From: an uncultured Myxococcales bacterium
GTDB lineage: Bacteria > Myxococcota_A > UBA9042 > DTJE01
Assembly: GCA_903847405.1 (NCBI GenBank)
Contig: CAINDP010000007.1
Coordinates: forward strand, 1 to 48,968
Direction of reading: 5' to 3'
Length of the DNA stretch: 48,968 nucleotides
Within the stretch, counting starts at the first letter, position 1. Each line of letters opens with the position of its first letter. The notes under the pieces were generated by a model. That model saw only the letters and a program-made list of their open reading frames with translations. It was not told the DNA's origin and made no database searches. The position numbers and the translations under genes are program-made. Below are positions 16,358-35,344 of this stretch, in pieces.

Positions 16358-19300
16358 CTATTTCGGACACGAGGGGCAGCCGCCGCAGTTGTTGTCGCTG
16401 CACCCCCCCACCGCCATGTTCCCCGTCACTTGCAGCGTGTAAGGGCTGCAGCCCGTGCCCGCGTGGAACGCGACGTGGATCAGGACGTCCATGCTGTCGC
16501 TGCATCCCAGCAGGCAGGCGAACCCGGTGTGATCGTCCCAGCAGAAGCCGACGTCCTCGGTCCCGCCGGTGCCGGCGCCGGCGCCCAGGCTGGCGCCGGA
16601 GCAGGCGGAGAAGGTGTAGACGTCATAGTCGGTGGACGCCGGGACGACCAGGTGGACACCGGCGCTGAGGTAGGACTGGCTGCTGGAGTCCTCGTTCACG
16701 GTCACCCGGTACCATCGGCCCCTGGTGCCGGTGGCGCTGAGGACGTCCGAACCGCTGTCGCCCTTGATGGTCCCGAGGTATTGCGCCGTGGCCTGCGTGT
16801 TCGTGTCGAGGCCCAGGTTCACCTCGCACCCGTCGCCGTCGATCCCGTTGCAGTTGCCGTAAAGGTCGTCGCAGGCGGAAATGGAGCAGGTCCCGGTGGC
16901 GCAGGTGGGGTTGGCATTGGTTCGCCAGCACGGGACGCCGCAGTCCCCGCAGTCGGTCAGCGTGCGGATCCCGCGCTCGCAGCCGTTGACGACGTTTCCG
17001 TCGCAGCTTTTCCAGCCGTCGCTGCACGTCGGCGCGCACGTGCCGTTCGTGCAGGTCGTGGTGCCGTTGGCGTTCGAGCAGGCGTTGCCGCAGGACCCGC
17101 AGTGGTCGACGTCGGTCGACGTCATTTCGTCCGTGGCGCCGTCGCAGTCGTTGTCGCGTCCGTCGCACGACGTTTCGCCGGCCGCCTGGTAGAACCCGCT
17201 GCACGCCTGGTAGCGCGTGCCGTCGCAGTCCAGCCAGCGCCCGCCCGCGCAGAGCCCGGCCGGCTTCGTGCAGCCGCTGCAGACGCCCTGGGTCAGTTCG
17301 CAATATCCGAGGTCGTTGGTCAGCAGGTCCGGATCCTCCGCGTCGGTGCTGCCGTCGCAGTCGTCGTCCAGTCCGTTGCAGGTTTCGGGGGCGGGCATGC
17401 CGGGCGTGCAGGAGTTCGGCGCGCCGTTCACGCACGCCGGTACCTGGCGGGCGCACAGGCCCAGCCCGCACGTGACGACACCCGGGTTGACGTTGGTGCA
17501 GGTGCCCGGGATCCCGCCCGTGCAGGTGCCCGACGTCGGCACCTGGCAGACGGGGTCGCAGTCGGCCCGGACGTCGCCCGGGGGCTGCGTCGGGCACAGG
17601 TCGGCCGCGGGCTGGCAGCCGCCGTTGCCGTTGCAGGCCGTGTCGGGAACGTCCGCCCGGTCGCGGCACCGGCCGTCCGTCCAGCCGGCGAAGGAGCCGT
17701 CGCACAGGACCGTGCCGCACTCGCCGTCGGGATCCTGCGCGACCCCGACGTAGCTGCACGTCCCCTCGAGGCCGGGCACGTCGCATCGCCGGCAGAGTCC
17801 CGTGTTGCATGCGCTGGTGCAGCAGGTCCCGTCGACGCACGACAGCCCCGCCTGGCAGTCGGTGGCCTGCGTGCACGGGGTTCCTGCCGCGAGGTCCGCC
17901 TGGCAGGTGCCGCCGCTGCAGTGGGCGTTCGCGTCGCAATCGGAATGGAACGTGCACGAGTTGGCGCAGGTCGGGTACACCTGGGTCTGGTCGGCCGTGC
18001 ACAGGACGGCAGGGTAGGCACCGCAGTCGCTGGCCTGCAGCCCGGCGCAGCCCGAGTCGTCGTTCACCAGCACGCCCGGCTCGCAGGACTGGCCGGCGGT
18101 GCAGATCGCATCGCGCCGGTCCCCCTGGCATTGCGTCGGGGTTGTGCAGGTGGGCACCTGTCGATAGCCCGCCGGGCAGTTGGCTGCCGTCGCGCAACAG
18201 TCGCCCGCAGCGCAGCAGAAGCCGTTCTGGCAATGTCCGGCCGTGCAATCCGAATCCTCGTCGCACGGCGCCCCGTCCGGCAGGTCCGCCAGGCACGCCG
18301 GTGGATCGCAGTGGGCGTTGCCGTCGCAGTGCGCTTCCGTAGCGCAGGTCGCGGCGCAGGCCGGTGCGGACTGATCGACCAGGCCGCTGCAGTACATCGA
18401 GGGGTACAGATCGCAGGCCAGGGCTTCCCGGGCCGGATCGCAGGCCGTGTCGTCCGGGACGTTGGCCGTCGATCCGCACCTGCTGACGACGCAGGTCGCG
18501 TCCACGCGGTGGCCCTGGCAGGTGGCCGCGGTGTCGCAAGTCGGAGGCGCCTGGTACAGGACCGGGCACGCCGCGGCCGAATCGCAGCAGTCGCCCGTCG
18601 CGCAGCAGAAGCCGTTGCCGCAGTGGCCGCCGGTGCAGTCGGACCCCTCGTCGCACGAGTACCCGTCGGCCAGGTTGGGCTGGCAGGTGCCGTCGCAGTG
18701 CCAGCCGGACAGGCAGTCGGTGTCCAGCGTGCACGTGGCCGCGCACTGGGGCTCGACCTGGCTGACTTGCCCGCTGCAGTGGACGGGAAGGAACGGGGAA
18801 CAGTCCTTGGCCGGCGTGTCGCGCGTGCAGCCCTGGTCGTCGTCGAGGCCGGGGCCGATCGCGCAGACGTTGGATACGCAGGCCGCGTCGCGGCGTGTCC
18901 CCTGGCAGGTCGTCGGCACGTCGCACGCCGGAGCCTGGCGGAAGGCTGCCGGGCAGTCGAACGCCTGCGCGCAGCAGGTGGTGTCGGTCCCGACGCAGCA
19001 GAAGCCGTTGGCGCAATGGCCGCCGACGCAGTCGGAATTCTCGTCGCAGGCGCTGCCGTCGTTCACGTCCGGGACGCAGGCGGCGCCGTCGCAGTGGGCG
19101 TTCCCGTCGCAGTCGGCATCGGAGCCGCAGGTCAGCGGGCAGGGCGGTTCTGCCTGGGTCGTCGCGCCGCTGCAGGCGACCGACGGGAACGGACCGCACT
19201 CCTTGGCCACGACCAGCGTCGTGCAGGCCTGGTCGGTGTCGATGCCGACCCGCGTGGAACACATCCAGTCCACGCATTGGGCCGCGTCCTGCGACCCCTG

Positions 19301-22300
19301 GCACGTCGTCGGGAAGTTGCACGTCGGGGGCTGGGTGTAGGGCGCCGGACAATCGGCCGGCGACACGCAGCAGTCCCCCGCGCGGCAGCAGAACCCGTTG
19401 CGGCAGTGGCCGGTCGTGCAGTCGGAGGCCTCGTTGCAAGGGCTGCCGTCGGGGGTGTCGGCCTGGCAGGTCCCGTCGCAATGCGCCTCGGGGTCGCAGC
19501 CCGCGTCGGTCGCGCACGCGGCGGGGCAGGTCGGCTGCCCCTGCTGGGTGGCGCCGCTACACGTGATCGACGCGTACGGGCCGCAGGTCGACGCGACCAC
19601 CGCGCCGTCACAGCCGCTGTCGTCCGGGAGGTCGCCGGTGCTGCCGCAGATTGAACCGACGCAGGACGCGTCCACGCGGTGCCCCTGGCACGTGACCGGG
19701 TCGACGCAGGTCGGCGGTGCGCCGTAGCGGCCGGGACAGTGGGCGGCGATGTCGCAGCAGTCGCCGGCCACGGACCGGCAGCAGTACCCGTTGCGACAGT
19801 GGCCTGCCGTGCAGTCCGTGTCGACCAGGCAGGGGTTGCCGTCCGCGAGGTTCGCGACGCAGAAGCCGCCCGTGCAGTGTGCGCCGGGGTCGCAGTCGTT
19901 CAGAAGGGTGCAGCCGGTGGGGCACGCCGGGGCGACCTGCTCGCGGGCCGAGGTGCAGAACACCGAGGGATACAGGACGCAGGTGCTGGCCAGTTGTCCC
20001 ACGCACCCCTGGTCGTCGTCCACCAGGGGGCCGACCTGGCAGCGGTTGTCCGAACAGACCGGATCCCGGCGCTGGCCCTGGCAGTCGGCGGGGGCGACGC
20101 AGGCGGAAGCCTGTCCATAGCGGGCCGGGTCGCAGTTCCCGGCCGCGGCGCAGCAGTCCCCCGCCGCGCAGCAGAAGCCGTTGCCACAGTGATGGCTGGT
20201 GCAGTCCGAGTCCTCGTCGCAGGTCCCGCCGCCCGGCAGGTTGGGCAGGCATTGCGCGGCGTCGCAGTGGGCGCCTTCATCGCAGCCTGCGTCCGACGAA
20301 CACTGGGTCGTGCAGGGAGGTTCGGCCTGGTCGGACTGGCCGTTGCAGGTCACGGTCGGGTACAGCCCGCAGTCCTTCGACGCGATCAAGGAGGTGCACC
20401 CCTGGTCGTCGGGCGTGCCGGGCTGGGTGAGGCATACGTTGCCCCGGCAGACGGCGGCCGCGACGGTGCCCTGGCAGGTGGTCGGAAAGTCGCATGCCGG
20501 CAGGCCGCGGTAGCCCGGGGGGCAGTCCGCCGCCACGGTGCAGCAGTCGCCCCTGGCGCAGCAGAAGCCGTTCCGGCAATGGCCCCCGGTGCAGTCGGAG
20601 TTCTCGTCGCAGACGGCGCCGTCGGGCTGGTCGGCCAGGCAGACACCGTCGCAATGCGCCGCCGGGTCGCAGTCGGCGTCCCCGACGCAGGCGGCCGGGC
20701 AGGCCGGGCTGGTCTGGTTGACGGCGCCGCTGCACGTCGCGTCCACGTACAGACCGCAGGGATTGGCCACCACGCCGCGGTCGCAGGCCTGGTCGTCCGG
20801 AATGTCCGCCCCGCGGCCGCAGACGGCCCCCAGGCAGGTGGCATCGACCCGGTGTCCCTGGCAGGTCGCGGCGTCGTCGCACGACGGCGCGTCGTGGTCG
20901 CCGGCCGGGCAGTCCGTTGCGGTCCCGCAGCAATTCCCCGACGGGCAGCAGAAGCCGTTGGCGCAACGTTTTGCGGCACAGTCGGAGTCCTCGTCGCAGG
21001 ACAGGCCGTCCGGCACGTCGGGCTGGCACGTCACGTCGCAGTGGAAGCCGGGCTGGCACTCGGCATCGCTCCCGCACGCCGCTCCGCAGATCGGCGCGAT
21101 CTGGCGCACGGCCCCGGTGCAGCGCACCGGCTGGTAGGGCGCGCAGTCCTGGGCGACCACGTCCGGCCCGCACCCGCCGTCGTCCTCGAGCCCCTCGCTG
21201 ATCGCGCACGTCGCGGCCAGGCATGTGGCGTCGCGGCGCGTGCCCTGGCAGGTGGCCGGCGTGTCGCACGTCGAGGCCACGGTGTAGGCCGGGGGGCAGT
21301 CCGCGGGCTGTCGGCAGCAGTCGCCCGCGGCGCAGCAGAAGCCGTTTCCGCAGTGGTCGCTGGTGCAGTCGCCTGCGTCGACGCAGGGTTGGCCGTCGGG
21401 GTTGTCGGCTACGCACGCCCCGCCGGCACAGTGGGCGTCGGCGTCGCAGTCCCGGGTTTCCCGGCACGTGGCCGGGCAGGCCGGTTCGGCCTGATCCGGG
21501 GCGCCCGTGCAGAACGCCGCAGGATACAGGCCGCAGTCCTTCGCCTGGGTGACCGGCGTGCAGCCCGAATCGTCCGGGGTGCCCGCGGCCGTGCCGCACA
21601 CGTGGCTCTGGCAGATCGCCGCGTCGATCTGGCCCTGGCAGGTGCTGGGGAACAGGCAGGTCGGGCGGCCGCCGTAGGTGGCCGGGCAGTCCGTCGGGCT
21701 GTTGCAGCAGTCGCCGCCCGTGCAGCACAAGCCGTTGTCGCAGTGCCCGCTGCGGCAGTCGGAGGGCTCGTCGCAGGCGCCGCCGTCGGGGGTGTCGGCC
21801 AGGCAGGTCCCGTCGCAATGCGCTTCGTCGTCGCAATCGGCGTCCGCGAGGCAGCCGAAAGGGCACTCCGGAGCGGTCTGGTTCGCCGCGCCGGTGCAGT
21901 GCACCGCACGATAGAAGCCGCAGGGGTTCGACTGGATCGCCCCCGTGCAGCCCGAGTCGTCCGGGAGGTTGTCGGTGGAGGCGCACGTGGCACCGACGCA
22001 GCGCGCGTCGATCCGGTGGCCCTGGCAGGTCGGCGCGTCGTCGCACGCCGCGGCCAGGCCATAGCGCGACGGGCAGTCCCCGGCGGCACCGCAGCAGTCG
22101 CCGACCGCGCAGCAGAACCCGTTCTCGCACCGCTTGACCGCACAGTCGCCGGGCTCGTCGCAGGGTTGGCCGTCGGGAGTGTCGGGGATGCAGGTGCCGT
22201 CGCAGTGCCAGCCGTCGCGGCATTCGCGGTCGGCCACGCAGGCGGTCGGGCAGGCCGGGGTGACCTGGACCAGCGCGCCGGTGCAGGTGACTGCCTGGTA

Positions 22301-23809
22301 CGGCGCGCAGGCGTTGGCCACGGTCTGGGGGCCGCACGCGGAATCGTCCTCGACCGCCGGCCCGATCGTGCAGGTCCACAGGCTGCAGACCGCGTCGTGG
22401 TGGGTTCCCTGGCAGGTTGCGGCGTCGTTGCAGGTGGGCGCGATGGCGTACCGGGAAGGGCAGTCGGAGGGCTGGCTGCAGCAGTCGCCGCCGGTGCAGC
22501 AGAAGCCGTTGGCGCACCAGCCGTGGGCGCAGTCCGCGTTGCCGAAGCAGGGGTACCCGTCCGGCACGTCGGCGATGCAGATCCTCAGCGTCGGGTCGCA
22601 GTGCGCGGATTCCACGCAGGTCGTGTCATCCTCGCAGGACGACGCGCAGCGGATGCCCTTCGCACCGCCGCCCTCGCACGTGTATCGTCCGCATTCCACC
22701 TCGTCCGGGCTCACGCACTCGCCGTGCACGCACGTCGCCACACCCGTCTCGAAGTAGCGGTTGGCGCTGCCGGTGCAGGCGAACGAGGGGCAGTCCGAAA
22801 CGGCTTCGTCCGTGGTGCCGTCGCAGTCGTCGTCCACGGAATTGCAGGCTTCGGTCGTGGCCTTTCCCGCGGTCGAGCACGCCGCCGCGTCCGGCGACGC
22901 GCACGCCACGCGCCCGTCGGCGCACAGGCCGGTGCCGCAGGCCTCCGCGACGGCCCGGACGGTCCCGTCCCAGTCGACGCTCGTGAAGCCCTCGTCGAAC
23001 TGCTGGTCGCAGTCGTTGTCGCGGCCGTCGCACGCTTCCGCTTCGGGCGTCGCGGCGGTGCAGTCGCCCCAGCCCTCGGCGCCCCGGCAGGTCTCTTCGC
23101 CGAAGCACGTGCCGATTTCGGCCACTGTGTTCTGGCACCCGCGCTTCGTGCCGTCGACCCCCTCGCCGCAGATGCAACTGGCCGTCGTCGGCAGGCACTG
23201 GCGCGCGGTCAACTGACCGGTCAGGTCGTCCGTGAGGTCGGTGCAGGCGTAGCCGTCAGGACACTCGCCGGTGCGCGCGCAGTCGGCGGCGCAATAGAGG
23301 CCGGCGGCCGCTCCCGTGCCGATGCGAAGGCACAGGTCGCCCTCGGCAGCGCAGTCCAGGTCCACCGTGCAGGGCTTGCACAGGCTGTGCGTTTCGGGGG
23401 CGCAGAGGTACTCCACGTCGGGGTAGGTGTTCACGACGGCCTTGCACAGCCAGCCCGCCGGGCATTCGTCCAGGCAGGACTGCGTGCAGACGCTCCCGTC
23501 CAGGTACGGGACGCACCGCAGGCTGGCGCAGTCGGCGTTTTCGCGGCAGGGGCACAGGAACGCGCCGGGCGTCGACGCACAATCGGGGGGGGCATCCGTC
23601 AGGCCGTCCTCGGGGCCCGGGTCCGGCAGCGCCTCCGGGAGATCGTCGCCCGCGTCCAGGGAAACTTCCGGGATGACGACTTCCAGCGTGTCCGGCAGGG
23701 GGATGTCCACCGGGTCGGACTGCGACGACTTCGCGCATCCTCCGGCCAGGAACCCGGCTGCAACCAGTACCGCTGCCAGCGTGACGCGGAAGATGACGGT
23801 GTTCAGCAT
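16358..23809 (-). CDS. Giant Cys-rich repeat lipoprotein (2483 residues)
   Basis: ATG 23809 follows GGAGG by 5 nt. The signal peptide ends LAGGC (Cys25), then an acidic tether (26-76). Residues 85-260 are the Cys-rich module shared with the lipoprotein at 11797; two MopE-type motifs follow (CDGRDNDCDQQFDE, CNSVDDDCDGTTDE). Residues 421-1978 are twelve tandem units of 129-131 residues with pattern CDExSDC, GHCxNGFCC, GDCC, DCPxxY, TCQG, DDxGC, CGxY, AHCDG, DTPDG. Further MopE-type motifs lie near the C-terminus (CNGLDDDCDGSTD, CDGRDNDCDGATDE), followed by a likely beta-sandwich (about 2350-2460) and a Cys-rich tail CSDNNCGGCPSCPK. It is probably a disulfide-stabilised surface fibre. Long open frames on the opposite strand are shadows of its GC-rich codons. 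Confidence 0.85.
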   Translation of the reverse strand: MLNTVIFRVTLAAVLVAAGFLAGGCAKSSQSDPVDIPLPDTLEVVIPEVSLDAGDDLPEALPDPGPEDGLTDAPPDCASTPGAFLCPCRENADCASLRCVPYLDGSVCTQSCLDECPAGWLCKAVVNTYPDVEYLCAPETHSLCKPCTVDLDCAAEGDLCLRIGTGAAAGLYCAADCARTGECPDGYACTDLTDDLTGQLTARQCLPTTASCICGEGVDGTKRGCQNTVAEIGTCFGEETCRGAEGWGDCTAATPEAEACDGRDNDCDQQFDEGFTSVDWDGTVRAVAEACGTGLCADGRVACASPDAAACSTAGKATTEACNSVDDDCDGTTDEAVSDCPSFACTGSANRYFETGVATCVHGECVSPDEVECGRYTCEGGGAKGIRCASSCEDDTTCVESAHCDPTLRICIADVPDGYPCFGNADCAHGWCANGFCCTGGDCCSQPSDCPSRYAIAPTCNDAATCQGTHHDAVCSLWTCTIGPAVEDDSACGPQTVANACAPYQAVTCTGALVQVTPACPTACVADRECRDGWHCDGTCIPDTPDGQPCDEPGDCAVKRCENGFCCAVGDCCGAAGDCPSRYGLAAACDDAPTCQGHRIDARCVGATCASTDNLPDDSGCTGAIQSNPCGFYRAVHCTGAANQTAPECPFGCLADADCDDEAHCDGTCLADTPDGGACDEPSDCRSGHCDNGLCCTGGDCCNSPTDCPATYGGRPTCLFPSTCQGQIDAAICQSHVCGTAAGTPDDSGCTPVTQAKDCGLYPAAFCTGAPDQAEPACPATCRETRDCDADAHCAGGACVADNPDGQPCVDAGDCTSDHCGNGFCCAAGDCCRQPADCPPAYTVASTCDTPATCQGTRRDATCLAATCAISEGLEDDGGCGPDVVAQDCAPYQPVRCTGAVRQIAPICGAACGSDAECQPGFHCDVTCQPDVPDGLSCDEDSDCAAKRCANGFCCPSGNCCGTATDCPAGDHDAPSCDDAATCQGHRVDATCLGAVCGRGADIPDDQACDRGVVANPCGLYVDATCSGAVNQTSPACPAACVGDADCDPAAHCDGVCLADQPDGAVCDENSDCTGGHCRNGFCCARGDCCTVAADCPPGYRGLPACDFPTTCQGTVAAAVCRGNVCLTQPGTPDDQGCTSLIASKDCGLYPTVTCNGQSDQAEPPCTTQCSSDAGCDEGAHCDAAQCLPNLPGGGTCDEDSDCTSHHCGNGFCCAAGDCCAAAGNCDPARYGQASACVAPADCQGQRRDPVCSDNRCQVGPLVDDDQGCVGQLASTCVLYPSVFCTSAREQVAPACPTGCTLLNDCDPGAHCTGGFCVANLADGNPCLVDTDCTAGHCRNGYCCRSVAGDCCDIAAHCPGRYGAPPTCVDPVTCQGHRVDASCVGSICGSTGDLPDDSGCDGAVVASTCGPYASITCSGATQQGQPTCPAACATDAGCDPEAHCDGTCQADTPDGSPCNEASDCTTGHCRNGFCCRAGDCCVSPADCPAPYTQPPTCNFPTTCQGSQDAAQCVDWMCSTRVGIDTDQACTTLVVAKECGPFPSVACSGATTQAEPPCPLTCGSDADCDGNAHCDGAACVPDVNDGSACDENSDCVGGHCANGFCCVGTDTTCCAQAFDCPAAFRQAPACDVPTTCQGTRRDAACVSNVCAIGPGLDDDQGCTRDTPAKDCSPFLPVHCSGQVSQVEPQCAATCTLDTDCLSGWHCDGTCQPNLADGYSCDEGSDCTGGHCGNGFCCATGDCCDSAAACPVLYQAPPTCDTAATCQGHRVDATCVVSRCGSTANVPDDTACDPAREALACDLYPSMYCSGLVDQSAPACAATCATEAHCDGNAHCDPPACLADLPDGAPCDEDSDCTAGHCQNGFCCAAGDCCATAANCPAGYRQVPTCTTPTQCQGDRRDAICTAGQSCEPGVLVNDDSGCAGLQASDCGAYPAVLCTADQTQVYPTCANSCTFHSDCDANAHCSGGTCQADLAAGTPCTQATDCQAGLSCVDGTCCTSACNTGLCRRCDVPGLEGTCSYVGVAQDPDGECGTVLCDGSFAGWTDGRCRDRADVPDTACNGNGGCQPAADLCPTQPPGDVRADCDPVCQVPTSGTCTGGIPGTCTNVNPGVVTCGLGLCARQVPACVNGAPNSCTPGMPAPETCNGLDDDCDGSTDAEDPDLLTNDLGYCELTQGVCSGCTKPAGLCAGGRWLDCDGTRYQACSGFYQAAGETSCDGRDNDCDGATDEMTSTDVDHCGSCGNACSNANGTTTCTNGTCAPTCSDGWKSCDGNVVNGCERGIRTLTDCGDCGVPCWRTNANPTCATGTCSISACDDLYGNCNGIDGDGCEVNLGLDTNTQATAQYLGTIKGDSGSDVLSATGTRGRWYRVTVNEDSSSQSYLSAGVHLVVPASTDYDVYTFSACSGASLGAGAGTGGTEDVGFCWDDHTGFACLLGCSDSMDVLIHVAFHAGTGCSPYTLQVTGNMAVGGCSDNNCGGCPSCPK
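17876..22549 (-). repeat. Array of twelve approximately 390-bp coding repeats
   Basis: Twelve in-frame units encode 129, 129, 130, 129, 129, 130, 130, 131, 130, 131, 130 and 130 residues. By diagnostic positions they fall into types in the order A B C A B C D B C A B D. Type B carries GHRVDA or GHRIDA, type C carries DAA or AAA plus KDCGLYP-like, type A carries WHCD or FHCD, and type D carries GxRRD with AHCxGG. B occupies positions 2, 5, 8 and 11. Confidence 0.85.
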
Positions 23810-23940: not shown

Positions 23941-24025
23941 TGGTGCGAGAGAGGGGACTCGAACCCCTAAGCCTTTCGGCGCTGGAACCTAAATCCAGGG
24001 CGTCTGCCAATTCCGCCACTCTCGC
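23941..24025 (-). tRNA. tRNA-Leu (anticodon UAG)
   Basis: An 85-nt class II tRNA with acceptor stem GCGAGAG/CTCTCGC, discriminator A and encoded CCA. The anticodon stem CTGGA/TCCAG closes the loop TTTAGGT, giving anticodon TAG. The long variable arm (GCGCCGAAAGGC) and the T arm with GTTCGAGTC are as expected for tRNA-Leu. It lies 55 bp downstream of the RelA/SpoT homologue on the same strand and has its own promoter. Confidence 0.97.
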
Positions 24026-24056: not shown

Positions 24057-24084
24057 AGGGTAGCCCGGCGACGCGGGGTGTCAA
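24057..24084 (-). promoter_or_regulatory. Promoter of tRNA-Leu
   Basis: On the minus strand a perfect TTGACA (24084-24079) is followed after 16 bp by TACCCT (24062-24057). The predicted start is about 25 nt before the tRNA 5' end. The TGA stop of the upstream RelA/SpoT homologue lies within this -35 box. Confidence 0.6.
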
Positions 24085-25733
24085 GGCGCGGATCCGTCGC
24101 TGGACCGCGGGAACAGGCGTCCCAGCAGGCCCCGTCCGACCTTTTCCAGCGCGCCGCGGGTGGCGCCCCGTCCGGCCTTCTTGTAGCGCCAGTGCGCGGC
24201 GTCGCCGTCGGGGCCGTCCGCCTGGAGGTGCATTTCGGGGGTGCGCAGTTGGACCTCGAACACCGGGCCCTCGGTGGCGCGCAGGTGGGTGTGCAGGCTC
24301 TGGTAGCCGTTGGGCTTGGGCCGCGCGATGTAGTCCTTGAAGGACAGCAGTTGCGGCTCGAACCGGCGGTGCAACGCGTCCAGGGCACGGTAGCAGTCCC
24401 CGGTCCCGGGCAGGATCAGCCGGAAGCCGAAGACGTCCTGGACCTGGTCCACCGCGATGTCGAGGGCCTGCATCTTGCGCCAGATGCCGGCCACGTGCTT
24501 GGCGCGGCGTTGCAGGTCCACGATGGACACCCCGGCCCCTTCCAGCGCCGCGCGGATCGCATGCTCGCGCAGGCCCAGCCACGCGGGCGGCGAGTCCGTG
24601 ATCGACGAAAGGTACGCCCCCACCCGCGCAAACGCCTCGGGGTTCAGCACGCGGAGGGCCGCGTCGTCCAGCCGCGAACGGAGGCCCAGATCGCCCAGGC
24701 GCTCCGCCATCAGGACGTCCTGCTCCCAGGTCACCCGGGCGTGCTCGACCACCTCGGGGTCGTCGGGGCTCTGGGACTCCAGCAGGCGCAGTTTGTACAT
24801 CAGGTACGTGCGTTCCATCTGGGATTCGGACTCGTCGTCCGGGCCGGTGTCGCCGGTCGCGCCGGGGCGTGCGGGCTGTGCCCCGGCGGCCGCCAGGGGG
24901 GGGACGATGGGCCCCGGGGTCGAGGCGGCGGCGTCGTGACGGGGGAAAGCACAGGCGACCCCGTCGGGATGCGGGACGTTCATTGCCCTGCGCTGGGCCT
25001 CGACCAGGCGGCGCACCGTCTGTTCGAGGTCGGACCCCAGCCGCCAGATCTCGTGGCCGAGGTACCGCCATTCAGGCGCCCCCTGGACGTCCTTGAGGAC
25101 GCCCAGGTAGCCGTGACCCATCTGGCGCAGGCCTTCCTGCAGGCGGTGCAGCGGGCGGGCGACCAGGAAGTGGTTGGCCACGACCAGCGAACCCACCACC
25201 GACAGCACCAGCAGCGCCATCTGCAGGAACCAACTGCGCCAGCGTCGCCGCGCCTCGTCGGGGAACGAGGGTGCGTCGGTCCAGACGGCCAGGGTTCCGG
25301 GATCGCGCCCCAGCACCGGCGAAAACACGGGCAACTGGGCATAGGGCACGCCGGTGGACGGGGCCTTGTCGAACCGCAGCAGCACCTCGGGATCCGAGGA
25401 CGCGACGATCTGGCCCAGGCCATCCACGAGGTCCAGGCGGACGGACGATCGGGCCCGGTTCAACACCTGTCGCGAAAACCGATCGATGCGGGCCTGGGCC
25501 GTTGCGAGGTCCCGGGTCGCCTCGATGTCCTCGACGAGGGAACCCATGAATTCGTCCAGCAGCATCTTGCGGTCGGTGCTGTCGTGGTCGATGTTCCGGT
25601 ACAACTGGACCAGGCTGAAGGCGCCGACGACGGTCGCGACGGTGACGGCGGTGACCAGGGCGAACCGCCATCCCAGGGGCACGCGCTCCAGGATGCGGCT
25701 GGGATTGGGCCAGCCTTCCGGGTGTCTCCGCAC
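24081..25733 (-). CDS. Transmembrane RelA/SpoT homologue: sensor-like module fused to (p)ppGpp synthetase domain
   Basis: Length is 550 residues from GTG 25733, with GGAGG 4 nt upstream. TM1 is about 24-44, an extracytoplasmic domain covers about 45-167, TM2 about 168-192, and a HAMP-like linker starts RPLHRLQEGL at 193. A Pro/Ala-rich linker (about 255-305) leads to a region like the one just before the synthetase in long RelA/SpoT proteins (AERLGDLGLRSRLDDAALRVLNPEAF). The synthetase domain (about 400-520) keeps the family motifs: AKHVAGIWRKMQ, Asp433 and Arg438, FKDYIARPKPNGYQSLH (466-481) and EVQLRT with Glu493. The HD hydrolase and the TGS/ACT regulatory domains are absent. I infer a membrane receptor that makes alarmone in response to an envelope signal. 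Divergent from the next gene, it has a deleted palindromic element just upstream of its start. Confidence 0.85.
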   Translation of the reverse strand: MRRHPEGWPNPSRILERVPLGWRFALVTAVTVATVVGAFSLVQLYRNIDHDSTDRKMLLDEFMGSLVEDIEATRDLATAQARIDRFSRQVLNRARSSVRLDLVDGLGQIVASSDPEVLLRFDKAPSTGVPYAQLPVFSPVLGRDPGTLAVWTDAPSFPDEARRRWRSWFLQMALLVLSVVGSLVVANHFLVARPLHRLQEGLRQMGHGYLGVLKDVQGAPEWRYLGHEIWRLGSDLEQTVRRLVEAQRRAMNVPHPDGVACAFPRHDAAASTPGPIVPPLAAAGAQPARPGATGDTGPDDESESQMERTYLMYKLRLLESQSPDDPEVVEHARVTWEQDVLMAERLGDLGLRSRLDDAALRVLNPEAFARVGAYLSSITDSPPAWLGLREHAIRAALEGAGVSIVDLQRRAKHVAGIWRKMQALDIAVDQVQDVFGFRLILPGTGDCYRALDALHRRFEPQLLSFKDYIARPKPNGYQSLHTHLRATEGPVFEVQLRTPEMHLQADGPDGDAAHWRYKKAGRGATRGALEKVGRGLLGRLFPRSSDGSAP

Positions 25734-25985: not shown

Positions 25986-26375
25986 ATGAGACCCACACCC
26001 TTCCAGGTCTTCTGTGGCTACTATCTCGGTCTGAACCGGGAGTTCGTCTACAAGTTCTTCAACCAGATGCAGTTGGCGGCGCACTTCGGGATGGACCCGG
26101 CCGAGCTGCGGCACCTGATGGAAGAGTACTACCTGACTCCCGAAATCACGCGCCACGTGAACTACAACATGGCCAAGGCGCATGCCACGGCGCAGGAACT
26201 GTTCGACGCCGGCGGCAAGGACGATGTCATCGCCTTCGCCAAGACGGCGTTCGAGGAGTTCCACCAGGCGCTGGTCCGGTACGATCCGTCGAAGGACTTC
26301 GAAAACGTGGACTATGACCGCCTCTTCCCCGGCGACAAACCCCCCACGCCCATCGATGACGATGCTGGCGATTGA
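25986..26375 (+). CDS. Conserved-looking small protein of unknown function
   Basis: Length is 129 residues. I do not recognise a family. It is soluble, mostly helical and acidic at the C-terminus (PTPIDDDAGD). The N-terminal half (FQVFCGYYLGLNREFVYKFF, then LAAHFGMDPAELRHLMEEY) resembles a small DNA- or ligand-binding helical domain, but that is only an impression. The start ATG 25986 is the first ATG after the -10 box and has no ribosome site. The gene overlaps the first ABC ATPase gene by 20 bp, so the two are probably translationally linked, which suggests a role connected with the transporter pair. Confidence 0.65.
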   Translation: MRPTPFQVFCGYYLGLNREFVYKFFNQMQLAAHFGMDPAELRHLMEEYYLTPEITRHVNYNMAKAHATAQELFDAGGKDDVIAFAKTAFEEFHQALVRYDPSKDFENVDYDRLFPGDKPPTPIDDDAGD

Positions 26376-34174: not shown

Positions 34175-35344
34175 ATGCTGAACGTCGCGCTGTTCGGGCC
34201 GCCGGGGGCCGGGAAGGGCACGCAGTCCGCGCGGCTGATCGAGCGGTACGGGCTGCACTACGTGGCGACCGGCGACATCCTGCGCGCCGAGATCCGCGAG
34301 GGCTCGGCCCTGGGGGTGGCTGCCCGGGCCATCATCGAGAAGGGCGGCCTGGTGCCGGACGAAATCATCGTCCAGATCCTGGAAAAGACGATCCGGGAGA
34401 ACACCGGCGCGAACGGGTTCCTGTTCGACGGCTTCCCGCGGACGTTCGTGCAGGCGTACATCCTCGAGGGCCTGCTGCTGAAGATGCACACGTCGCTGAT
34501 GAACCTGGTCAGCCTGGAGGTTCCCCAGGCGATGTGCCTGGAGCGCCTGCTGGGGCGTTCGCGGACCTCGGGACGCAGCGACGACACCCGGGAAGTCATC
34601 GAGTACCGCCTGCGGGAATACCAGGAAAAGACCGCGCCGGTCCTGGACTTTTACGACGAACGCGGCGTTCGCGTGGCCGTGGACGGCACCGGAACGGTGG
34701 ACGAGGTGTTCCGCCGGATCACCGACGTCCTGGACCGGTCCCTGCGCAAGGTGCAGTTGAACGTCGTGTTGCTGGGCGCACCCGGCGCGGGTCGGGGAAC
34801 CCAGGCCCCCGCCCTGGCGGCCCGGTACAACCTTGCCTACCTGGCGACCGGGGATCTGCTGCAGGGCGAGGTGCGTCGCGGGACTCCGGCGGGACGGAAG
34901 GCGGCGGAACTGCTGGAGGCCGGGCGCCTGGTCCCCGACGAGATCGTCATCCGGATGATCGAGGGGACGCTGCAGTCGCACCCGGACAAGAACGGGATCC
35001 TGTTCAAGGGATTTCCCCGGACGCTGGTCCAGGCGTACATCCTGGACGGCCTGCTGCGCCGGATCGGGTCCCGGGTGAACTGCATCCTGGACATCCGGGT
35101 GCCCACCCTGGAACTGATCAAGCGCCTGGCCGCCCGTGCGGGCACTCCGCGCGCCATGCCTTACGACCGCGCCACCGATACGATCGTGCGCCGCCTGGAG
35201 GAGCACGAGCGCTACGCGACCGCGATTGCGAACTACTACGAAAAGACCGGCCGCCACCGCGTCATCGATGGCGTGGGGGCGCAGGACGAGGTCTTCGGGC
35301 GCCTGTGCGCACAGGTGGACATCGCGTTCCGACAGGCGCGCTGA
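34175..35344 (+). CDS. adk: Tandem adenylate kinase: active first domain, degenerate second domain
   Basis: Length is 389 residues, about twice a usual short-type Adk. Domain 1 (1-192) has P-loop GPPGAGKGTQ (8-17, Lys14), NMP-binding motif DGFPRT (85-90), and a short LID with GRSRTSGRSDD, matching active zinc-free Adk. Domain 2 (193-389) keeps the fold (TGDLL, GRLVPDEI, VQAYI) but has GAPGAGRGTQ with Arg207 at the catalytic Lys position, KGFPRT with Lys278 instead of the conserved Asp, and no GRxDD motif in the LID. It is therefore probably a pseudokinase that may regulate or stabilise domain 1. No SD is obvious; TATCAT (34143-34148) may be the -10 box. Confidence 0.9.
   Translation: MLNVALFGPPGAGKGTQSARLIERYGLHYVATGDILRAEIREGSALGVAARAIIEKGGLVPDEIIVQILEKTIRENTGANGFLFDGFPRTFVQAYILEGLLLKMHTSLMNLVSLEVPQAMCLERLLGRSRTSGRSDDTREVIEYRLREYQEKTAPVLDFYDERGVRVAVDGTGTVDEVFRRITDVLDRSLRKVQLNVVLLGAPGAGRGTQAPALAARYNLAYLATGDLLQGEVRRGTPAGRKAAELLEAGRLVPDEIVIRMIEGTLQSHPDKNGILFKGFPRTLVQAYILDGLLRRIGSRVNCILDIRVPTLELIKRLAARAGTPRAMPYDRATDTIVRRLEEHERYATAIANYYEKTGRHRVIDGVGAQDEVFGRLCAQVDIAFRQAR

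Follow-up and report, generated by a model that had tools for sequence, protein, structure and literature searches.

Classically, (p)ppGpp is raised by Rel on stalled ribosomes, through protein partners of SpoT or Rel, or by induced small synthetases. Membrane receptors such as WalK, CusS and the HAMP-linked diguanylate cyclases have a TM-PDC/Cache-TM-HAMP input half, in which PDC/Cache serves to bind small molecules and HAMP acts as a dimer.

The window analysed here is a stretch of 48,968 nucleotides from an uncultured Myxococcales bacterium, whose genome (G000; handles of this form denote genomes) is 96.7% complete. A sequence-only reading had placed a membrane receptor-like RelA/SpoT homologue at 24081-25733. 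This was borne out, as an open reading frame, a RelA_SpoT match and two predicted transmembrane (TM) segments are all present. The encoded protein is real, conserved and unusual, and combines two known kinds. Exported alarmone synthetases, in the available part of their description, are secreted via a signal peptide or secretion domain (PMC12691689); the window protein resembles them in having a synthetase tied to a membrane-targeting N-terminus (Z of 9.7 for a Streptomyces exported enzyme) but is predicted to have two conserved TM helices rather than one N-terminal signal. Its TM pair and HAMP-like element would put the enzyme in the cytoplasm. RelZ and Tas1 are, in the accessible portion of their source, likewise fused forms in which a synthetase is joined to another domain, but there the partner is RNase HII or a toxin-delivery domain and not a transmembrane receptor (PMC7591505). 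The main text of an RSH survey, in the part available, contains the words “transmembrane” and “fusion” zero times (PMC3153485). Among the matches listed in searches of the CC-licensed PMC literature there was no membrane-receptor RSH.

Domain order and the sensor half

At 24081-25733 on the minus strand a 567-codon open frame encloses 550 codons counted from GTG. The frame is not a chance one, given its overall dN/dS of 0.27 against a 77%-identical copy in G001 and the presence of six further full-length copies in five other genomes. From N- to C-terminus the 550-residue protein consists of TM1, an extracytoplasmic domain of ~125 residues, TM2, a HAMP-like element, a flexible linker and a RelA_SpoT synthetase, and it ends ~30 residues past the synthetase. 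The features of the locus are:

24081..25733, minus strand: whole gene (550 aa, GTG start; ORF call, and purifying selection in the comparison with the 77%-identical G001 copy)
25608..25664, minus strand: TM1, residues 24-42 (hydropathy 2.23, 7/7 copies; model helix 20-72)
25233..25607, minus strand: putative extracytoplasmic PDC/Cache-like sensor domain, residues 43-167 (model alpha-alpha-beta-beta-alpha-beta-beta; WalK and CusS sensor domains at Z 8.1-8.6)
25176..25232, minus strand: TM2, residues 168-186 (hydropathy 2.21, 7/7 copies; dN/dS 0.07)
24981..25175, minus strand: HAMP-like element and next helix, residues 187-251 (helices 157-205 and 220-251; dN/dS 0.07)
24843..24965, minus strand: disordered linker, residues 257-297 (pLDDT below 50; poorly conserved; dN/dS 0.45)
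24537..24842, minus strand: helical region before the synthetase, residues 298-399 (alignment to RelSeq from residue 148; model similar to Rel over 297-510)
24174..24506, minus strand: RelA_SpoT synthetase domain, residues 410-520 (PF04607, 1.1e-29; R410, K412, K420, D433, R438, K473, Y477, H481, E493)
23941..24025, minus strand: tRNA-Leu, immediately downstream (ARAGORN, Rfam; borders the empty site in G002)
25986..26375, plus strand: divergent 129-aa ORF, outside the system (in 13/13 relatives searched; other edge of the empty site)

RelA_SpoT is the sole Pfam family above cut-off in the window protein (103.4 bits, cut-off 27). The HD hydrolase and the TGS and ACT domains, said earlier to be missing, indeed gave no Pfam match there. 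NCBIfam spoT_relA aligns to residues 332-526 only and scores 159.5 bits, where 499 is required for a whole protein; such a partial alignment is expected, since the synthetase protein corresponds to one part of Rel.

The earlier claim of two TM segments agrees with hydropathy, which predicts the pair in all seven copies. The loop between the pair is 125 residues long in the window protein and 111-131 residues in six of the seven; in G001 an extra low-scoring segment is called, and its two TM segments nonetheless align with those of the window. Residues P194, L195, L198, M205, G208, G218 and E221 of the HAMP-like element are invariant in all seven copies. Pfam finds no HAMP match in the window protein, while HAMP passes the cut-off in the G176 relative (25.5 bits versus 25). 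The HAMP-like linker of the sequence-only reading is probable on these conserved residues and the G176 match. That reading needs one correction here: ~40 residues, disordered in the model and variable in length in the seven-copy alignment, separate HAMP and enzyme. Because this disordered, variable-length linker intervenes, a rigid helical push on the synthetase is unlikely, and the modelled linker weakens the case for classical HAMP coupling.

An AlphaFold2 model built from 23 sequences has a mean pLDDT of 77.7 and an overall pTM of 0.44; residues 300-500 are mostly well predicted and the domain arrangement is not predicted. By VIA-align, for which a Z under 8 to 13 can mean merely a common arrangement, the N-terminal half of the full model (residues 16-258) superimposes on the integrative model of WalK (Z 10.7, rmsd 5.3, 234 aligned), a separate sensor model matches WalK similarly (Z 10.6, rmsd 4.0, 184 aligned), and the WalK, CusS, KinD and McpU sensor domains match at Z 8.0-8.6, with ribosomal protein rows reaching 7.5. 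In a Foldseek search, full WalK (E 2.8e-5) was the only match under 0.001. The sensor domain is probably of the single PDC/Cache type, as in WalK or CusS, rather than dCache, a family named in the sequence-only reading.

Of 356 phylum genomes searched with a profile built on the N-terminal halves of the seven copies, 86 have a match at E<=1e-5. Members of the family, 7 in all, range from E 7e-88 to 3e-109; every other match is at 5.8e-11 or weaker, and most of these cover TM2-HAMP only. Five such outside matches were examined and proved to be histidine kinases (L095, L100, L106) or GGDEF proteins (L096, L099). The one match outside the family to span nearly the whole profile (6-231 of 233, E 8.9e-10) lies in G241 and proved to be a HAMP-containing histidine kinase. 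As all six examined outside matches are histidine kinases or GGDEF proteins, the input half is of the histidine kinase/cyclase kind, and the idea that a synthetase here replaces a kinase or cyclase output fits these relatives. The window protein probably shares the input half of WalK, CusS and the HAMP-linked diguanylate cyclases and differs from them in its output, which is RelA_SpoT rather than HisKA/HATPase or GGDEF. Among the 356 genomes, with six outside matches examined, the full sensor-half unit was found fused only to RelA_SpoT, save for the distant G241 histidine kinase.

The synthetase domain and its relation to long Rel

The sequence-only reading depended on a RelA_SpoT HMM match and on homologues keeping the catalytic residues, and both were found. 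The synthetase residues listed above are kept in 7/7 sensor synthetases, the window included, and an alignment of these seven with 16 Rel domains (23 sequences) shows H455, D467, Q495 and R497 to be invariant also. When aligned to the RelSeq structure 1vj7, residues R410, K412, K420, D433, Y477, H481 and E493 correspond to R241, K243, K251, D264, Y308, H312 and E323, which have roles in substrate and metal binding; D433 and E493 had been singled out earlier as part of the intact catalytic motifs. The window protein has SFKD at the RxKD motif. SFKD recurs in G001 and one G006 copy (G006a), where, as in the window, the Arg ahead of FKD in Rel (RelSeq R295) is replaced by Ser; RFSD is found in G073 and RFKD in the remaining three copies. 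This site varies among active enzymes, as E. coli RelA has FDD there. Residue N475 is Ser in G176, G185 and G073. The synthetase domain is likely to be catalytically active.

The predicted model superimposes on S. aureus Rel with a Z of 18.7 (rmsd 4.8, 213 aligned, model residues 297-510) and on E. coli RelA with a Z of 17.7, versus 10-13 for small synthetases and 11.4 for CapRel (VIA-align). The helical region 298-399 is the counterpart of the stretch between HD and synthetase in long Rel. Thus, the window protein has in common with the long RSH proteins (Rel/RelA/SpoT) the synthetase and the preceding helical region, all catalytic residues tested and the fold; it differs in lacking HD, TGS, RIS and ACT and in having TM-sensor-TM-HAMP as its N-terminal half. 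Like the small alarmone synthetases (RelP/RelQ/RelV) it has no hydrolase or ribosome-binding domains, and RelP and RelQ share its fold at Z 10-13. Unlike them it contains the long-Rel helical region, its sequence match to them is weaker than to long Rel, and its family adds two TMs and a sensor half in 7/7 copies.

Besides the window gene, its genome has a single RelA_SpoT gene at E<=0.001. This second gene encodes a long Rel with HD_4 (6.8e-49), RelA_SpoT, TGS and RIS, and is cut at a contig end. In a survey of 207 genomes at least 197 had one or more RelA_SpoT genes among the matches listed. For G002 (96% complete) this survey found no RelA_SpoT gene at E<=1e-5; its long Rel may lie in an assembly gap or may be truly absent.

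Distribution, selection and locus

The sensor-synthetase fusion is conserved, with seven full-length copies, the window included, in 6 of 377 Myxococcota genomes. The searches covered 52 relatives and the 377 phylum genomes, two sets that overlap, and the 377-genome search scored three candidates per genome, whereby a miss is possible. Relative to the window protein the copies are 77% (G001), 44-45% and 35-38% by alignment (two in G006), 42% (G176), 33% (G185) and 33% (G073) identical. The G073 frame is open; the TGA within its match is simply the stop codon that ends the gene, which the alignment just includes. Eight other genomes of the 377 matched at E<=1e-55 over the synthetase part alone and were taken, by coverage, as ordinary RSH. 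Order-level searches around G176 (14 genomes), G185 (63) and G073 (183), which share several genomes with the 377, gave no new member. A contig scan with six short peptide patterns, whose reach is close relatives, returned a single locus taken as the G001 copy. Matches were present in 67 plasmid and 33 phage records, none spanning 80% of the query, and at 13 IMG/VR loci, all of them C-terminal (residues 320 onwards).

In a maximum-likelihood tree of the synthetase domain only (44 rows) the seven copies form one clade (100/99), in which G185 and G073 are long branches, such that the usual caution about long-branch joining applies. Selection acts on both halves of the protein. Between the window gene and the G001 copy, dN/dS is 0.18 in the synthetase region, 0.31 in the periplasmic domain, 0.07 in HAMP and in TM2, 0.45 in the linker, 0.52 in the C-terminal tail and 0.84 in the N-terminal 23 residues; the value for TM1 (1.23) comes from only 22 codons and is unreliable. 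These values place HAMP and synthetase of the window gene under purifying selection.

The tRNA-Leu adjacency is common to G000 and G001. In G002, of the same genus, the interval from tRNA-Leu to the 129-aa ORF is ~270 bp, has no match to the gene and represents an empty site. A relic lies on another contig (L037:5892-5999; G002:C39), where the C-terminal end of a sensor synthetase is followed by a stop; 36 residues match at 53% and 27 residues (500-526) at 70%. Given this empty site and displaced relic, the gene is mobile or readily lost within the genus. Rfam reported no RNA element besides the tRNA at the locus, and a promoter scan returned nothing on the minus strand directly upstream of the gene.

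A conserved operon was considered and rejected, as neighbours differ and no gene is common to all loci (some contigs are short). The second G006 copy is preceded, at a distance of 4 bp from its ATG (L034:3822), by a 188-aa two-TM HAMP-like protein (L034:3251-3817). In G073 a 35%-identical protein of this type (L069:2839-3396) lies ~4 kb upstream of the sensor synthetase; it adjoins genes of the NhaA-type antiporter and ferric-reductase-like kinds, and MerC is found downstream. These proteins of about 185-190 aa have no output domain, and their Pfam HAMP match is marginal (0.056). A profile built from the G006 and G073 copies gave G253 (L074) as its single independent match, so that the small protein is known from 3 of 377 genomes and lies near 2/7 sensor synthetase copies; in G253 it occurs alone, no sensor synthetase being found at E<=1e-55. 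We treat it as a lead, not as evidence. In G176 a subtilase gene (L070:6497-8272, minus strand) overlaps the sensor synthetase gene where the latter probably begins, which suggests that the two are co-transcribed.

Proposed function and competing explanations

On balance, we favour the reading that the window protein is an accessory inner-membrane one-component receptor with (p)ppGpp synthesis as its predicted output. In such a receptor, the extracytoplasmic PDC/Cache-like domain between the two TM helices would control, via the HAMP-like element, a cytoplasmic Rel-type synthetase that would make (p)ppGpp from ATP and GDP or GTP. An extracytoplasmic ligand might alter the HAMP dimer and thereby change the pairing or exposure of the two tethered synthetase domains. 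As the sensor synthetase has no hydrolase, the task of clearing (p)ppGpp would fall to the separately encoded, HD-containing long Rel. Regulation of the synthetase from outside is predicted and fairly likely. Counting against the receptor reading are the rarity of the family (6/377 genomes), the same-genus genome G002, which holds just a relic, the lack of a Pfam HAMP match in the window protein, its Ser in place of the Arg ahead of FKD, and the low pTM of the model. There is about an even chance that the protein is, more broadly, the founder of a class of transmembrane alarmone receptors whose extracytoplasmic Cache-HAMP input acts directly through a Rel synthetase, in which an external ligand rather than ribosome-sensed starvation sets (p)ppGpp and some lineages employ a second two-TM subunit, HAMP-like, devoid of output and encoded 4 bp upstream. 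A receptor that makes the alarmone directly would give the stringent response a one-component input route, as c-di-GMP has, would make the envelope-to-alarmone link directly testable within one polypeptide, and would provide a model from nature for building a ligand-controlled alarmone switch in the laboratory.

The N-terminal half might instead only anchor and dimerise a constitutive or local synthetase, perhaps near a membrane machine, with no ligand switch. The disordered linker between HAMP and enzyme is consistent with this, as is the weaker conservation of the periplasmic domain (dN/dS 0.31) relative to HAMP (0.07) and enzyme (0.18). Yet that domain is predicted to be a folded PDC/Cache-like one and is under purifying selection, and a plain anchor would have no need of a HAMP-like element held at 0.07; we consider a simple tether rather unlikely. 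The 27-36 residues that are left in G002, close to a stop codon, the rarity of the family and the long branches of G185 and G073 would fit a decaying or catalytically silent Rel duplicate, an explanation made very unlikely by catalytic residues invariant in 7/7, a synthetase dN/dS of 0.18 and seven open frames.

A patchy distribution and the presence of CapRel among the structural matches (Z 11.4) could also point to an enzyme that is toxic through alarmone synthesis or tRNA pyrophosphorylation (toxSAS/CapRel-like, or a defence module) and that either its membrane part or a partner restrains. A candidate partner would be the small HAMP-like protein with two TMs that lies upstream of the sensor synthetase in G006 (at 4 bp) and in G073 (at about 4 kb), but it was not found in G000 or G001, no neighbour is conserved across the loci, some of which lie on short contigs, and the synthetase is nearest to long Rel in both sequence and fold (Z 18.7 versus 11.4). 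PADLOC PDC-S33 (54 bits) was the one match of that program and covers the RelA_SpoT stretch alone, and the defence or toxin assignment was not adopted; we regard it as quite unlikely.

Elsewhere in the window, a 389-aa ORF (34175-35344, plus strand) apparently contains two adenylate-kinase-like halves in tandem. An 888-aa ORF from 28054 (plus strand) opens with two identical 28-residue tandem copies before a lipoprotein-like signal; its true start may lie downstream, with the repeats intergenic. On the minus strand, 16358-23809 encodes a repeat protein of 2483 aa, rich in cysteine, that has CNGxDDDCD-type motifs and begins like a lipoprotein.
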